DNA of 64,000 nucleotides. Source: Riemerella columbipharyngis. GTDB lineage: Bacteria; Bacteroidota; Bacteroidia; Flavobacteriales; Weeksellaceae. The stretch is taken from the NCBI RefSeq assembly GCF_900101995.1, contig NZ_FNAS01000013.1, forward strand, positions 1 through 64,000, in the 5' to 3' direction. Under the pieces are notes generated by a model. The model had not been told where the DNA came from. It searched no databases and saw nothing but the letters and a program-made list of their open reading frames with translations. A program made the position numbers and the translations under genes. This document shows positions 1 to 36,149 of the stretch, piece by piece; within the stretch, counting starts at the first letter, position 1, and the number at the start of each line of letters is the position of its first letter.

Positions 1-105
1 AATTTCAAGTATTTGCTGTGGGTGGTTATTCTGTTCGGAATCGCTTTTATCGGATATTCCAGCGGTATTTTTGGAGTGTTTAAAAGGCTTTTAAATAGAG
101 ATTAA
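1..105 (+). CDS. C-terminal end of a small membrane protein (partial)
   Basis: The frame is open at the left edge and ends with TAA at 103-105, leaving 34 visible codons. The peptide is mostly hydrophobic: one membrane segment at about codons 5-28, containing WVVILFGIAFIGY, followed by a basic tail KRLLNRD that would lie in the cytoplasm. No family can be assigned from so short a piece. It lies on the same strand as the phage-like genes that follow, so it is probably the last part of a phage or mobile-element gene. Without the missing 5' part a chance open frame cannot be excluded, although the hydrophobic-then-basic pattern is typical of a real membrane protein end. Confidence 0.5.
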   Translation, partial: NFKYLLWVVILFGIAFIGYSSGIFGVFKRLLNRD

Positions 106-128
106 ATCCCGCTTAAACTTCTTTTTTT

Positions 129-260
129 AGGAGGACGAGAAGTAAAAAAAGTCCTCCGCTTTTTAAAAATCTCTGACCACTTTTAAAAACACGAGCCACA
201 GGCTACGGAGGACAATATGTCTTCTGTACCTGTGTTTTTTTTTGTGTTAAGTAGTCAGAG
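129..260. other. Nested inverted repeats, possible structured RNA or complex terminator
   Basis: Several arms pair in this 130-bp gap. AGGAGGAC (129-136) pairs with GTCCTCC (151-157), followed by a T run. CTCTGACCACTT (171-182) pairs with AAGTAGTCAGAG (249-260). AAAAACAC (185-192) pairs with GTGTTTTT (232-239). AGCC (194-197) pairs with GGCT (201-204). ACGGAGGAC (205-213) pairs with GTCTTCTGT (219-227) using G-T pairs. Together they fold 171-260 into one closed multi-branch structure. A simple terminator would need only the first hairpin, so a phage RNA element is possible. This is inference from pairing alone. Confidence 0.5.
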
Positions 261-287
261 CGACAAAGATAATAAAAATTAAATAAT

Positions 288-506
288 ATGAATAAGTATC
301 ATCAAATTTTAGAGAAAATTTTAAAGAAAGGGAAAGTACAGGAAAATAAAAAGGGCAGTATCAAATATCTGCTCGACCAACAACTAAAACCGCCATTAAA
401 GAGCATCACGCTAAATCTCTGTAATGTGCATATTTACGAAAACAATATAAAAGGAACAAAACAACAGTTACAAGGAGAAAAAGTAAAATTTGAATAAAAT
501 GTGTAA
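288..506 (+). pseudogene. Thymidylate-synthase-like gene collapsed by internal deletion
   Basis: The reading frame starts at ATG 288. The N-terminal part (MNKYHQILEKILKKG, then a QENKKG stretch) resembles the start of thymidylate synthases (YHxLLxxVLxxG..KxDRTG). About residue 34 it jumps directly to PLKSITLNLCNVHIYENN and a QLQGE stretch, which resembles the extreme C-terminus of the same family (xxxDVHIYxNHxxQxxxQLxRE). The substrate pocket and catalytic Cys region between them are absent. The frame stops at TAA 495-497, but reading through gives NV and a second stop at 504-506. If that TAA was once TTA, the end would read KFELNV, a natural-looking terminus. I infer a phage-type thyA (or dUMP-hydroxymethylase) relic with a large in-frame deletion and a late nonsense mutation. 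The family match is from memory of the motifs. Confidence 0.55.
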
Positions 507-507
507 G

Positions 508-1245
508 ATGGAAATACGAATTAAAACGAAATCATTGGGTAGCTTGGTTATAAAACCCATAAGTAAAGCAAAAGCTAAGGATTTAATAATTAAAAATCAT
601 TATTCGCACAAGTGGAATAATGCAGGCTTTGGACTATATAACTTTGGTATATTCAGAGAGGGTAAAGAGTTGGAGACTCAATGTTTAGGCGTTGCGGTTT
701 ACGGATATATGAAGAATCTCAATGCGAAAATATTTACACATCCAAGCCCCGATGCGATAATGTTAGAATTAAACAGGATGTGGATAGATGATTCTTTAGG
801 GAAAAATGCAGAAAGCCTGCTCATTGCTCATTCTCTGAAAGCGATTAAGAGATTAAACAAGAATGTGGTTGCAGTGCAGTCCTTTGCCGACGGGCGTTTA
901 GGATGCGGTACTATATACAAGGCATCGAATTTTAAGTATTACGGAAAGCATCAAACAGTTTTCCTGCGTAACAAGAGAACTAAGGAAATAACACATCATC
1001 AGAATTTGACCAATACAACATGCCGGTCTATTTATGTGCGTGAAAACATTGCATATCTATTGGGGGACTTCGAGCATTTCAAGGTGGATACTTATCGGTA
1101 TATTTTTCCGCTTTGCAAGCATTTTAAGTTCAAGAATCCCGAGAAGCCTTATCCTCCATATAATAAAGGAGAATATCCATTTGAATGGGTAAGAGATAGG
1201 GCAAAGATAAAAGAGCGGTTAAAGAGGTTTATTGATGAGTTGTAA
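508..1245 (+). CDS. Mom-like phage DNA-modification protein (GNAT fold)
   Basis: A protein of about 245 residues resembling the Mom family of phage Mu. Mom modifies adenine (methylcarbamoyl group) in phage DNA to evade restriction. Visible hallmarks are KNHYSHKWNNAGFGLYNFG near residues 29-47 (His31-Tyr32 in the place of the family His-Tyr pair), a central strand LGVAVYGY, and SFADGRLGCGTIYKASNFKY near residues 126-144, with Asp128 and Tyr137 in the spacing expected for the Asp...Tyr pair. I chose ATG 508, just after the ancestral stop of the upstream thyA relic; TTG 490 or ATG 499 would add a few residues. A hairpin terminator follows directly. The gene appears intact although its neighbour is broken. 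Function is inferred from motifs; another GNAT-like phage protein remains possible. Confidence 0.6.
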   Translation: MEIRIKTKSLGSLVIKPISKAKAKDLIIKNHYSHKWNNAGFGLYNFGIFREGKELETQCLGVAVYGYMKNLNAKIFTHPSPDAIMLELNRMWIDDSLGKNAESLLIAHSLKAIKRLNKNVVAVQSFADGRLGCGTIYKASNFKYYGKHQTVFLRNKRTKEITHHQNLTNTTCRSIYVRENIAYLLGDFEHFKVDTYRYIFPLCKHFKFKNPEKPYPPYNKGEYPFEWVRDRAKIKERLKRFIDEL

Positions 1246-1272
1246 AAGCCCTCAAATAAGAGGGCTTTTTTA
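1244..1272 (+). terminator. Intrinsic terminator after the Mom-like gene
   Basis: Perfect 10-bp stem AAAAGCCCTC (1244-1253) / GAGGGCTTTT (1260-1269) with a 6-base loop and a run of six T. It overlaps the stop codon of the Mom-like gene and closes that transcription unit. Confidence 0.85.
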
Positions 1273-1308
1273 CGACTTATTGTAACGAAAAAAGTTACAA
1301 CCATGCCT

Positions 1309-1500
1309 CTAAAAAATTGCACATTTCGTTTTGCGGATTATAATATTGTTAATATTTATACTGCTTTCATTCAACTTTGTTATTTTTTTTGTTTGATTAT
1401 CTAAAAAATTTAACATTAAGAATGAAATAATTATTATTGCAGATATAGAAGCAATAGCAAATATATTATTGTTTCTTAAACAAATTAACTTATTATTCAT
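1309..1500 (-). CDS. Possible 63-residue membrane peptide
   Basis: An ATG frame of 63 residues with one strongly hydrophobic segment at about residues 12-33 (NIFAIASISAIIIISFLML) and a polar Asn/Lys-rich tail. No family is recognised. It lies in very AT-rich, decayed DNA between a phage-like segment and an IS remnant, where chance frames rich in Ile and Asn are common. The base before the ATG offers only a weak AAAAG. It could be a small toxin-like or orphan membrane peptide, or not a gene at all. Confidence 0.25.
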   Translation of the reverse strand: MNNKLICLRNNNIFAIASISAIIIISFLMLNFLDNQTKKITKLNESSININNIIIRKTKCAIF

Positions 1501-1585
1501 CTTTTACACCAATTATTAAGAAATCACCATATTATTTCAATAATTCACCTATATAGCTTTAAAATATTTATACCTTAAAAAATAT

Positions 1586-1913
1586 TTATTTCTCATTTAT
1601 TATTTTATTATTTAAGCTATCTATCCTCGTTAATAGTTTCCTTATCTCTACTCTTTGGTTTGGTAATTCTTCATATTTGATTTGATTTGTTTTATATGCC
1701 AATCTTTTTTTCATTACTAAAACTCTGTCTTAGTTCTATAATTTTATATTCAAAAGAAATTGTGAGAGCATATTTTGTAAATTGGTAGATTATAGTTATT
1801 ACTACTATAACTATTGGGATGAAAGACCACCACCCTCCAAGAACTTTTTTACACTTATTTAATATAAGTGTAGAATTTTTACTTAATTGGGAGACTTTAA
1901 CTTGGATACAAAA
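1586..1913 (-). pseudogene. Broken single-membrane-segment reading frame
   Basis: On the minus strand an open frame without an ATG (1913 down to 1692) encodes a short polar start, then KKVLGGWWSFIPIVIVVITI, then YQFTKYALTISFEYKI. This is a convincing membrane anchor followed by a soluble stretch. It stops at 1692-1694. A shifted frame beginning at ATG 1714 continues with a charged, helix-prone sequence (KKRLAYKTNQIKYEELPNQR and on) to a stop at 1586-1588. Read together they look like one membrane-anchored coiled-coil-like protein cut by a frameshift and truncated at its 5' side next to the IS30 remnant. No family is recognised. Confidence 0.35.
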
Positions 1914-1954
1914 TCAAATAAAAAACTCTTATTAATCTATTTTGAGGATACATT

Positions 1955-2352
1955 CAACCAATGCGATAATTGATAAAAGAGGTCTTTCGGAGTTTCTAAA
2001 AGTTAAGTTTTCCCTTGGTCTTCGATTATTTCTTTGATATATTCATTATCAATGATACTAAATTCTGATGATTTCTAAATATGTTGTCTGACTCATTTAT
2101 TGCTGTATTCATTCAATATTCTTTCCCATAAACTATACAGATGTGCAAAATAAAATTCAAACTACAATTTTTTTATATCCTTTTGATGATGAGCAAACTC
2201 AACATCATCACTGGTAATAGACTTTAAGGCAACAGCATACTTATCACGGTTTGTGCCAGTGCTTCTGCATTTTCCCCTTAAAAGAATCCCCTTAATAAAA
2301 ATAAAGCTTCTATCTCATTTGTCGCTTTTTATATTCAAACTTAGGAGAGACT
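1955..2352 (-). pseudogene. IS30-family transposase remnant, copy A
   Basis: The minus strand preserves broken pieces of the C-terminal catalytic core of an IS30-type DDE transposase. The block is clearest by comparison with the second copy at 35,731-36,149, which aligns along its whole length with many substitutions and small indels. That copy reads TSDNGIEFAHH (second Asp), then FYFAHPYSLWERR (the Glu in the WER box), then an EDQVKNLNFRTLKDLFYQ tail. In copy A the same boxes are interrupted by frameshifts. The 5' half (HTH and first Asp) is missing. No terminal repeats can be defined. It is an old, non-functional relic next to the phage-like segment. Confidence 0.75.
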
Positions 2353-2382
2353 TATTTCTAAATTATTACCCCAAAAACTATT

Positions 2383-5190
2383 CTAATGTGCTTTCAACCA
2401 ATTATCTCCTACACCTACTTCGGTGAGCAACGGTACTTTGGACGAAAATGCGTTTTCCATTTCGTTTTTGATGATTTTTGAGGCATCTTCTACTTCTGCT
2501 ATCGGACTTTCAAATACCAATTCATCGTGTACTTGCAGCAGCATTTTAGTTTCCATTTGCAACTGTGCCAGCCGTGCATCTATCTTTATCATTGCTACTT
2601 TTATAATGTCTGCAGCACTCCCTTGTATAGGGGCATTTACGGCATTACGCTCTGCATGGCCTCTTACGACGAAGTTGCTGGAATTAATGTCTTTCAGATG
2701 GCGTTTTCTCCCCATAATCGTTTCTACATAGCCTAATTCTCGGGCTTTATCCACTTGCTCTTTCATAAATTCTTTCAGCCTTGGGTAGGTTTCAAAGTAG
2801 GCGTCAATCATCGCTTTGCTTTCTGCACGAGAGAGATTGGTCTGTTCGCTCAGTCCAAATGCTGATACCCCATAGATAATCCCAAAATTAACCGTTTTGG
2901 CTTGGCTTCTTTGCAGCCGTGTTACTTCATTGATAGGGACATGGAATAGCCGTGATGCTGTAGCAGTATGGATATCTTCGCCTTTTTGGAATGCTTCTAT
3001 CATATTTTCTTCACCTGAAATCTCGGCAATCAGTCTAAGCTCTATCTGGGAGTAGTCTGCGGCGATGATTTTCTTCCCTTCTCCTGCCACAAAAGCACCT
3101 CGCACCTGCTGTCCCCGAGGGGTGCGGATAGGAATGTTTTGCAGATTGGGATTGGTGCTTGATAGCCTTCCTGTAGCCGCTACGGTTTGCATAAAGTTGG
3201 TATGCACACGGTGGTCTTTTTTGTCAATCTGCTCGGGTAGTGCATCTACATAGGTAGATTTTAATTTTTGTAGTTGTCTGTATTCCAGTATTTTTGATAT
3301 GATTTCATGCTTGGAGGCGAGTTTTTGCAAGACTTCTTCGGAGGTAGAGTATTGTCCTGTTTTGGTTTTTTTAGCTTTAGCGTCAAGTTTTAGTTTATCA
3401 AAAAGAATATCTCCGAGTTGTTTTGGAGAGTTCATATTAAAGGCTTCTCCGGCAAGCTCAAAAATACCTTTTTCTAAAGTAGTCAAATCTTGTTCAAGAT
3501 CAATACTTTCTTGTTTCAAGAATTTAGTATCCAGAGCTATTCCCTCCAGTTCCATTTTGGCTAAAACTTTCAGCAGGGGGATTTCTATTTTGTAGAATAG
3601 ATTTTCCAGTCCTTCTTTTTTTAGTTGAGGTGCAAAAAGCTCGTAGAGCTGAAAGGTAACATCGGCATCTTCGGCGGCATAGTCGGTTTGGGCTCTTAGA
3701 TCTACGTCTCTCAGGGTAAGTTGTTTTTTCCCTTTTTTACCGATTAGAGATTCTATGGAGATAGGGGTGTAGTTGAGGTAAACATCAGAGAGATAATCCA
3801 TATTGTGTCTGCCATCGGGGTTTAGCAGATAGTGGGCAATCATAGTGTCAAACAGATTTCCGGCGACCTCTATCCCGTATTGTTTCAAGATTTTATAGTC
3901 AAATTTCAGATTGTGGGCAATTTTAAGGATATCCTCTTTTTCAAAAAACGGGCGGAATATTTCTACTACATTTTGAGCCTGTTCTCGTCCTTCGGGTATG
4001 GGTACATAGTACGCCAATCCTTTTTTGTACGAAAAACTAAACCCTATAAGCTCTGCTTCCAACTCATTGAGGGAAGTAGTTTCCGTATCAAAACATACGG
4101 CTTTTTGCTGCAACAGATTTTCCAGCAAAACCCGTTGCATTTTTTCGTTGTCTACATATTGGTAGAGGTGGTCTGTGTTTTCTATGTTTGTACGGGTGGT
4201 CGTGGCACGTTCCAATTCTTCGAAATCCGAAAATAAGTCTAATTGGACAGAATTATTTTTCTCCGATGCTTTCTGAATGGGTTCATTGTTTGTCCCTACA
4301 GAGAATGTACGGTACAGATTTTCGTAAAGTCTTTTGAACTCTATTTCATCAAAAATTTCTTTGACTTTTTCAAAATCAGGAGTATCCATATTATACTCCT
4401 CTTCTTTGAAATCTATAGGGGCGTCGCATAGTATGGTTGCCAGTTTTTTGGACATAATGCCTCTTTCTGCAGAGGCTTCTACTTTTTCTTTCAATTTTCC
4501 TTTCAGTTGGTCTGTATTGGCGAGTAGATTTTCCATAGAGCCAAATTCTTTCAGGAATTTTTTTGCCATTTTCTCACCTACGCCTTCCAGCCCGGGAATG
4601 TTATCTACGCTGTCGCCCATCATTCCCAGATAATCTATAATCTGTTTCGGGTCGGATATTTCGTATTTTTCTAAGACCTCTTTTACGCCAAGAATTTCTG
4701 CCTCTCCGCCTTTTATTGCGGGTTTATAGATTTTTATATGTTCTGTTACCAGCTGGGCAAAATCTTTATCAGGTGTTACCATAAACACATTATATCCTTG
4801 TTTCTCTGCTTTGCCGGCTATGGTCCCAATCACATCGTCGGCTTCATAGCCCTCTACTCCCAAAATAGGGATATGCATTGCTTTAAGAATAGCCTCTATG
4901 TAAGGTACGGCTACTCGGATTGCTTCCGGCGTTTCGGCTCTGTTGGCTTTATAGTCGGTAAAATCTTCGTGTCTTACATTCTTTCTACCTACATCAAACG
5001 CCACTGCGATATGCGAGGGACGCTCCTTTTTGATGAGTTCTATAAGTGAATTGGTAAAGCCGTATATGGCAGAAGTGTCCAAGCCTTTGCTCGTTACTCT
5101 CGGATTTTTGATAAATGCATAATAACCTCTGAAAATCATGGCATAGGCATCTATCAGATATAGTCTTTTGTCTTTTTGCTCTGTACTCAT
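2383..5190 (-). CDS. polA: DNA polymerase I
   Basis: A full-length family A DNA polymerase (935 residues; E. coli PolA has 928). It fills gaps after Okazaki primer removal and in excision repair. Residues 1-290 form the 5'-3' exonuclease domain (LIDAYAMIFRGYYAF, YEADDVIG, and the helix-hairpin-helix GLEGVGEKMAKKFL). Residues about 345-530 form a 3'-5' exonuclease domain that looks active, since it keeps FDTETTS near 366. The polymerase follows with motif A DYSQIELRLIAE (~710), motif B RSQAKTVNFGIIYG (~760) and motif C QVHDELVFE (~884). It is monocistronic: decayed DNA lies downstream and a 670-bp gap upstream. Start ATG 5190 places the first conserved residues normally and lies 5 bp after a TATCTTTG -7 element. 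Confidence 0.98.
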   Translation of the reverse strand: MSTEQKDKRLYLIDAYAMIFRGYYAFIKNPRVTSKGLDTSAIYGFTNSLIELIKKERPSHIAVAFDVGRKNVRHEDFTDYKANRAETPEAIRVAVPYIEAILKAMHIPILGVEGYEADDVIGTIAGKAEKQGYNVFMVTPDKDFAQLVTEHIKIYKPAIKGGEAEILGVKEVLEKYEISDPKQIIDYLGMMGDSVDNIPGLEGVGEKMAKKFLKEFGSMENLLANTDQLKGKLKEKVEASAERGIMSKKLATILCDAPIDFKEEEYNMDTPDFEKVKEIFDEIEFKRLYENLYRTFSVGTNNEPIQKASEKNNSVQLDLFSDFEELERATTTRTNIENTDHLYQYVDNEKMQRVLLENLLQQKAVCFDTETTSLNELEAELIGFSFSYKKGLAYYVPIPEGREQAQNVVEIFRPFFEKEDILKIAHNLKFDYKILKQYGIEVAGNLFDTMIAHYLLNPDGRHNMDYLSDVYLNYTPISIESLIGKKGKKQLTLRDVDLRAQTDYAAEDADVTFQLYELFAPQLKKEGLENLFYKIEIPLLKVLAKMELEGIALDTKFLKQESIDLEQDLTTLEKGIFELAGEAFNMNSPKQLGDILFDKLKLDAKAKKTKTGQYSTSEEVLQKLASKHEIISKILEYRQLQKLKSTYVDALPEQIDKKDHRVHTNFMQTVAATGRLSSTNPNLQNIPIRTPRGQQVRGAFVAGEGKKIIAADYSQIELRLIAEISGEENMIEAFQKGEDIHTATASRLFHVPINEVTRLQRSQAKTVNFGIIYGVSAFGLSEQTNLSRAESKAMIDAYFETYPRLKEFMKEQVDKARELGYVETIMGRKRHLKDINSSNFVVRGHAERNAVNAPIQGSAADIIKVAMIKIDARLAQLQMETKMLLQVHDELVFESPIAEVEDASKIIKNEMENAFSSKVPLLTEVGVGDNWLKAH

Positions 5191-5195
5191 AGCGA

Positions 5196-5203
5196 CAAAG
5201 ATA
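5196..5203 (-). promoter_or_regulatory. Probable -7 element of the polA promoter
   Basis: On the minus strand TATCTTTG fits the Bacteroidota -7 consensus TAnnTTTG and ends 5 bases before the polA ATG. No convincing TTTG -33 box is found at 18-21 bases upstream, so only the -7 half is supported. Similar T-A-T-C-T-T-T-G or TAACTTTG blocks precede the TPR, DUF6427, U32 and GH3 genes in this window. Confidence 0.4.
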
Positions 5204-5862
5204 CAAATTTTAGAAAGGCTCTAAGTTGATGTTGTTTTATAAATTGCTGGTTGCGTATTAAAAAAGTTGCTTAAATCGTTAATGATGATTGTATGATATT
5301 GGTTATAAGTTAGTTGCGCGCTGTCTTGTACCTAAGTTTTGAAGAGAGAATAACAGCTGATAAGCCGTATGAACAGAGCGTTGGCATAACAGTAAAAGGA
5401 ATCTCGGGTTGATGAAAATGGCAGGCATTAAGGCGGTTTATTCTAATGCTGCATACAAGTATATAAGTGTAATTTGTATCAAATTTCGTATTTAAATAGT
5501 TAAGGCAAATCCGTTATACTACCAATCAATGGGAATAATGGTTTTATTTTTAACTGAAAGTATAATTAAAACTGTAAGTAAAAGAAGCCTAATACTACCC
5601 AACCAATTCCTCAGTATGATAATTGATTAAAAATTTCGTAGCTAAAAATGCTATTCCATCAGCAGGACTGTTAATCTAATTTTCTTTACATTTTTATTAG
5701 AGTTTAAAAATAGTAGGAATAACTTTTTTAGACAATAATTTCTATCCAAAGAAATATAGAAACATTTTTTGCACTACTAGATAAAAATCTATTTATCTTG
5801 GATTTCATTTAGCAATGCAATATCTTAAAGAGTTTATAGCTTATGAAAAAAACTATTTCCTA
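5204..5862. other. 659-bp gap with no recognisable gene
   Basis: No open frame with gene-like composition is seen on either strand, and six-frame reading gives many stops. I see no transposase motif, no hairpin with a T run and no tandem repeat. Its length and AT-rich composition resemble the other decayed gaps in the window, so it may be a gene or IS that has lost its signal. Confidence 0.5.
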
Positions 5863-35730: not shown

Positions 35731-36149
35731 AACCAACCAATGTAATGCATTGATAAAAAAGGTCTTTCAGAGTTCTAAAATTTAAGTTTTTTACTTGGTC
35801 TTCGGTTACTTCTTTGATATATTCATTATCAATTATACTAAATTCTGATGATTTCGAAATATATTATCTGACTCATCTATTGCTGTATTCACTCAATCTT
35901 CTTTCCCATAAACTATACGGATGTGCAAAATAAAATTCAAACTACATTTTTTTGCAACCTTTTGATGATGAGCAAACTCAATACCATTATCACTGGTAAT
36001 GACTTTATCGAGTCTTTGTAAGGCTACAGCGTATCTATCACGGTTTATACCAGTGTTTATACATTTTTACCTTAAAAGAATTCTTTTAATAGAAATAAAA
36101 CCTTAATTTTCATCATTTTTTACTTAAGTTTAATAATTCAGAGACTTAC
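35731..36149 (-). pseudogene. IS30-family transposase remnant, copy B
   Basis: On the minus strand the reading gives RDRYAVALQRLDKVI, TSDNGIEFAHH (second catalytic Asp), FYFAHPYSLWERRLSEYSN (WER box with catalytic Glu), stops and one-base shifts, then FSIIDNEYIKEVTEDQVKN and LNFRTLKDLFYQ, the tail of the IS30 catalytic core. It aligns with 1,955-2,352 throughout, with about one substitution every few bases. Only the C-terminal part is left. It abuts the IS1016-like fragment, so one IS probably inserted in or next to the other before both decayed. Confidence 0.8.

Follow-up and report, generated by a model that had tools for sequence, protein, structure and literature searches.

A Mom-family gene behind a shared structured leader at the right end of a Mu-like prophage in Riemerella columbipharyngis

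Organization of the prophage right end

The window analysed here comprises the first 64,000 nucleotides of contig NZ_FNAS01000013.1 of Riemerella columbipharyngis (assembly GCF_900101995.1); window base 1 is contig base 1, and the contig begins within a prophage. No other contig end of this genome was found to overlap window base 1, and the left half of the prophage is unplaced. The first feature (1–105, plus strand) is the 3' end of a late phage gene of a 200-aa class, which is spanin-like by position and is cut by the contig start. It is followed by a structured element (about 130–271), the remnant of a thymidylate synthase (TS) homologue (288–497) and an intact mom gene (508–1245). An intrinsic terminator-like hairpin, read in the sequence as GCCCTC-AAATAA-GAGGGC followed by TTTTTT, starts two bases 3' of the mom stop codon (1248–1271, plus strand). 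The right end of the Mu-like prophage, TTTTGCGGATTATA (1329–1342, plus strand), is common to other prophage ends here and recurs elsewhere in this genome, each time with an unrelated flank after it. The sequence-only reading had placed the gene in a phage remnant, and the phage setting is borne out by this right end at 1342.

In the window (end at 1342) as in phage TCUEAP3, which encodes MuA and MuB and has the terminus GATTATA, mom is the final gene before the right end of the transposable phage; the right end of phage Mu likewise carries com-mom. In fF4-like transposable phages of Bacteroidetes, DNA-modification genes are among the last ORFs (PMC7761591). In the window, mom fills the accessory slot at the right end of a transposable, Mu-like prophage. 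Several Mu-like right ends are present in this genome, and elsewhere in it lie two MuA-like genes whose matched stretches contain no stops.

Mu-like right ends or right-end-like motifs were located on contigs C8, C9, C11, C14, C15, C16, C20, C28 and C40, a large number for a genome of 2.1 Mb, and several contigs break at Mu-like right ends. The cargo behind the same late gene varies and includes Mom, ABC-ATPase/GNAT, SocA/Panacea-like and Cas9-like genes. The Cas9-like cargo is an 889-aa protein (L125, contig C8, 5490–8159, minus strand) in another Mu-like prophage, with a Cas9-type HNH domain (PF13395, E 9e-11; PDB Cas9 HNH, E 1e-4), an arginine-rich stretch and a RuvC-I-like N-terminus without the Asp; genes for an SNF2-type helicase and a methyltransferase-like protein come next (3947–5500 and 2317–3957), and no relatives of it were found in viral contigs. 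A degenerate repeat of about 390 bp is also dispersed over the genome, with copies in the window (1955–2345 and 35734–36099) and on contigs C40, C15, C28, C14, C11, C10 and others. Its fragments, such as 'SITCDNG...FTHPYSSWERG', suggest decayed transposase genes, which are taken here to be IS30-like.

The mom gene product

The mom gene (508–1245, plus strand) was described from the sequence alone as intact, and its frame is indeed uninterrupted, encoding a Mom-family GNAT protein of 245 aa; further in-frame starts lie upstream of the ATG at 508 (ATG at 499 and TTG at 490). In Pfam, the product matches PF25680 (Mom) with an E-value of 3e-63 and 213.5 bits against a cut-off of 27.1, and it also matches PHROG 1384, 'Mom-like DNA modification protein' (E 1e-41). 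All 27 aligned relatives match PF25680 and none matches another Pfam family. A phmmer search against PDB retrieved phage Mu Mom (8bv8, E 1e-19), which was the sole PDB match of a profile built from the relatives (E 1e-37), and BLASTP gave 33% identity to Mu Mom over 213 aa.

The HYS and FAD-x8-Y motifs named in the sequence-only reading were found as His31-Tyr32-Ser33 and Phe126-Ala127-Asp128-x8-Tyr137, and across the 27 aligned relatives (31–85% identity) H31, Y32, S33, R90, D128, Y137 and Y144 do not vary. S103 aligns with S124 of Mu Mom, which is the mutated position of the 'inactive mutant S124A' structure 8bv8, and relatives carry Ser or Thr at that site. The His-Tyr, Asp and Tyr residues are presumed active-site residues. 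Among close relatives, the product is under purifying selection, with a pN of 0.09 versus a pS of about 0.9.

The AlphaFold2 model of the product, predicted from the alignment with a pLDDT of 92.1, has a GNAT-like fold that is nearest to Mu Mom: 8bv8 ranked first in Foldseek, and VIA-align superposed it with a Z of 20.6 over 200 residues (rmsd 3.2), the runner-up being a GNAT N-terminal acetyltransferase with a Z of 13.1. Structure prediction and comparison with Mu Mom had been proposed as a check of the family assignment, and Pfam, PHROG and the matches to the Mu Mom sequence and structure agree on it; neither a non-GNAT fold nor top matches to a non-Mom family without the His-Tyr and Asp...Tyr residues were obtained. 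An ordinary GNAT acetyltransferase acting on proteins or small molecules would share the general fold, but protein acetyltransferases reach a Z of at most 13.1 at 9–12% identity, Pfam gives Mom alone, and the slot is otherwise occupied by DNA-modification genes. Such an identity was rejected on Pfam, the phmmer and profile searches against PDB and the structural ranking, and is considered extremely improbable. The product of 508–1245 is a genuine member of the Mom family, which itself is already known.

By analogy with Mu, the protein would place an acyl-type (methylcarbamoyl-like) group on adenine N6 of phage DNA late in the lytic cycle, and the packaged, modified DNA would resist the restriction enzymes of the next host. 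It is rather unlikely that this Mom-family enzyme has a different chemistry, attaching another acyl or aminoacyl group or modifying another base than the Mu product. At 33% identity to Mu Mom, the donor pocket could have changed, and other acyl modifications have been predicted for related GNAT systems (PMC7824862), but the key residues and the fold match Mu Mom far better than other GNATs. The sequence-only reading allowed for an unusual base in either the host chromosome or the phage. Under the preferred adenine modification, and going by Mu, the modified base should occur for the most part in phage DNA at a late stage of lytic growth, rather than in a quiet lysogen's chromosome. Restriction evasion is the likely role of Mom hypermodification, and with this enzyme a characterised kind of DNA hypermodification would reach a transposable prophage from the genus that includes Riemerella columbina.

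The collapsed thymidylate synthase homologue

The upstream neighbour of mom, which had been reported as collapsed, is a 69-aa remnant of a TS homologue (288–497, plus strand) in which the N- and C-terminal parts are fused over a 405-bp in-frame deletion; both Pfam and PHROG match it to the end of thymidylate synthase. Its intact counterpart was found in genome G002 of the same genus, where a 207-aa protein is encoded behind the same leader with a DNA methyltransferase next to it. Alignment with the G002 copy indicates that the deletion removed the segments with the catalytic Cys and QRSSD, and accordingly the catalytic Cys and the QRSxD motif are absent from 288–497 and kept in G002. All intact copies of the TS homologue have 'LPxD', with Asp at the site where TS has Asn. 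Asp at that site marks dCMP-using members of the superfamily, such as T4 dCMP hydroxymethylase, and the intact TS homologue is therefore probably also a base-modification enzyme, as judged from its sequence.

The damaged neighbour raises the question of whether mom is a stranded relic, that is, a gene of a defective prophage that is never expressed and is intact only through recent loss. The 405-bp deletion is consistent with such decay, as are the absence of the remaining prophage from this contig and the many scattered Mu-like ends in the genome. However, the deletion is in frame and left the leader, mom and the terminator intact, the Mom protein is constrained, and TS homologues are optional in the slot, as many relatives have mom alone. 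A relic is regarded as unlikely, if the least so of the alternatives considered here. The preferred reading is a functional-looking mom, because its family, fold, conserved residues, selection, right-end position, intact frame and own terminator all point in that direction.

A structured element upstream of mom

Many relatives also have, upstream of mom, the block that in the window separates the late gene (ending at 105) from the TS remnant. This block contains a structured element listed on the plus strand at 143–271, or about 130–271 with the upstream GGAGGAC (130–136), which scores 103 bits with covariance model R1. The element consists of strand A (151–158), helix P1 (171–180 with 251–260), helix P2 (about 188–202 with 229–248), strand B (206–213) and strand C (219–226). 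A pattern search of viral contigs yielded 46 matching stretches, nearly all of them genuine elements, and R1 was built from ten of them. With this model, a second copy was detected in this genome on contig C15, and copies were present in 35 of 296 genomes of the family, while a class-wide search with the same, narrow model and strict filters added one further genome only.

Across 72 distinct element sequences, 93% of cells pair, compared with 68% after shuffling and at most 54% when slid. Double-sided changes were found in 547 cells versus 161 in shuffled data, and the covariation score was 0.58 versus 0.15. Since the alignment of the 72 sequences had been fitted to the model, pairing was also tested without an alignment; in all 46 sequences of this test, the element's own arms paired better than swapped ones. 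For the window copy, the folding z was -6.3 on the plus strand and -4.3 on the minus strand.

The element was rejected as a known RNA, as four loci carrying it were searched against Rfam 15 and none reached E ≤ 1. Over window positions 1–2400, the sole Rfam match was a chance SurA hit outside the element, and a keyword check of one published set of candidate microbiome RNAs did not find it. A simple plus-strand terminator was also rejected, since the T-run after strand A is unconserved and the A-run before strand A is conserved.

Genes downstream of the leader

In all 73 leader loci, the first gene after the leader falls into one of seven DNA-modification kinds: Mom, the TS homologue, two sorts of Dam-like methyltransferase, a Dcm-like methyltransferase, an ABC-ATPase/GNAT system (often with a formyltransferase) and a ParB-methyltransferase. 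About 17 of these loci were found through Mom and the rest through pattern, model or DNA similarity searches. The association between the leader and modification genes was not built in, because most loci were not found through Mom. Behind the leader, mom stands alone in many relatives. For the ATPase/GNAT system, DNA acylation has been predicted by others (PMC7824862). The occurrence of one leader before seven unrelated kinds of modification gene suggests a common switch for the timing of DNA modification, and the slot would be a plug-in site in which one leader serves whichever DNA modification the phage carries. The covariance model also provides a sequence handle with which unknown modification genes can be found from what follows the element.

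The leader hairpin does not always travel with the same gene. Two close phages with near-identical mom genes (L026, 9846–9983; L028, 9852–9983) have unrelated hairpin stems, and the same hairpin stands before mom in L028 and before a methyltransferase in L146 (1762–1893). Hairpin module and downstream gene are thus exchanged independently of each other.

In most loci, the ABC-ATPase/GNAT gene carries an interruption, always at the same position (L151, L161, L164, L165 and others; clusters C4/C5, phrog_11143). The interruption lies around TTTTTTAAAG, with a slippery T TTT TTA in frame and a stop within a few codons, and the -1 frame is open from about 109–115 nt back and continues for 140–160 aa into the GNAT part. 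By its sequence, the interruption looks like a programmed -1 frameshift.

Strand and possible function of the leader

Beside P1, CAAAGATA (264–271) reads as TATCTTTG on the minus strand and matches TAnnTTTG, the sigma-A -7 box of Bacteroidota, which is located at -12 to -5 (PMC9723704). CAAAnnTA, the complement of this box, directly follows P1 in every aligned copy; the model and the fold-stability analysis had the box included, and distant copies that were found through Mom (L005, L006, L015, L021 and L031) also carry it. The A-run before strand A corresponds on the minus strand to a U-run after strand A, and the box and the A/U-run flank the element at fixed spacing. An RNA of about 115 nt, read from the minus strand with its start at P1, would agree with these features.

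Other evidence on the strand is mixed. In 54 of 55 element copies, the plus strand gives the more stable fold, and symmetric scoring of P1 and P2 gave 34 G-T versus 18 A-C (p 0.036). Wobbles in A:B (16 A-C versus 2 G-T, one antisense row counted) point to the minus strand, whereas those in B:C (42 G-T versus 7 A-C) point to the plus strand. With evidence for either strand, both strands of the element may be read. The stretch from the late gene to mom showed no sigma-A box on the plus strand, and transcription of mom would thus rely on read-through out of the late genes upstream.

It was also considered that the element acts as DNA, namely as a hairpin or exchange site bordering a swappable cassette. 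This would account for the near-identical phages with different hairpins (L026 and L028), for the same hairpin before different genes (L028 and L146) and for the almost purely Watson-Crick pairing of P1 and P2 with few G-U pairs. However, the stems vary in sequence yet stay paired, as RNA stems do, the sigma-A box and the A/U-run lie at fixed spacing around the element, and the wobble bias of the individual helices (A:B and B:C, counts above) is unexpected in duplex DNA. A role as DNA is considered improbable, and an RNA element is preferred.

Mu mom offers a precedent for control by RNA structure (PMC6483171), and from this precedent, its position and its conservation we infer that the leader controls the expression of the modification cassettes; the element at 130–271 would set when the cassette is expressed. 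Taken as a whole, it is considered probable that the locus holds a functional-looking mom in the right-end slot of a Mu-like prophage, acting as a modifier of phage DNA, with expression of the cassette under the control of the leader.

A more specific joint reading, to which an even chance is given, is that the element is an undescribed structured RNA of about 130 nt in Mu-like phages of Bacteroidota and is dedicated to DNA-modification cassettes. In this joint reading, the stems diverge freely yet pair, and the helices A:B and B:C are mutually exclusive. The element may give rise to a small RNA from the minus strand, transcribed from its own sigma-A promoter and U-rich at the 3' end, and also serve as a plus-strand leader of the late message. 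Mom, Dam/Dcm-type, TS-type and GNAT/ATPase genes would be silent in the lysogen and released late, and the element would play, for many enzymes, the part that Com together with the inhibition structure plays for mom in Mu.

Comparison with known systems

The window protein and Mu Mom (8bv8, PF25680) share the family, the GNAT fold, the His-Tyr, Asp and Tyr residues and the Ser equivalent to S124, and each is encoded by the final right-end gene of a transposable phage. The window protein differs in being only 33% identical and in having a C-terminal extension. Mu has com and the mom translation-inhibition structure where the window has the TS remnant and the shared leader. A com gene overlapping the mom start was not found in the window, the upstream ORF being the TS remnant without a Com-like match. 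In Mu, as probably here, an RNA structure lies just 5' of mom, and the phage is expected to delay modification (PMC6483171), but the window element is larger, is common to seven unrelated gene types and has no Com beside it. With the TS / dCMP hydroxymethylase superfamily (PF00303), the intact relatives of the neighbouring gene share the active-site Cys and QRSxD; in contrast to that superfamily, they are short (about 210 aa) with Asp for Asn, and the window copy is without the catalytic core.

The fF4-like phages and TCUEAP3 have a Mu-like layout with the modification gene among the last ORFs, as in the window. In fF4, a methylase is found in place of Mom, and the available part of its description contains no structured element before the modification gene in fF4-like phages (PMC7761591). 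TCUEAP3 is closer, as its Mom is 73–74% identical to that of the window and it has the same kind of leader and right end. Compared with these systems, the unusual part of the locus is the shared structured leader, while the mom gene itself is a new member of a known family.
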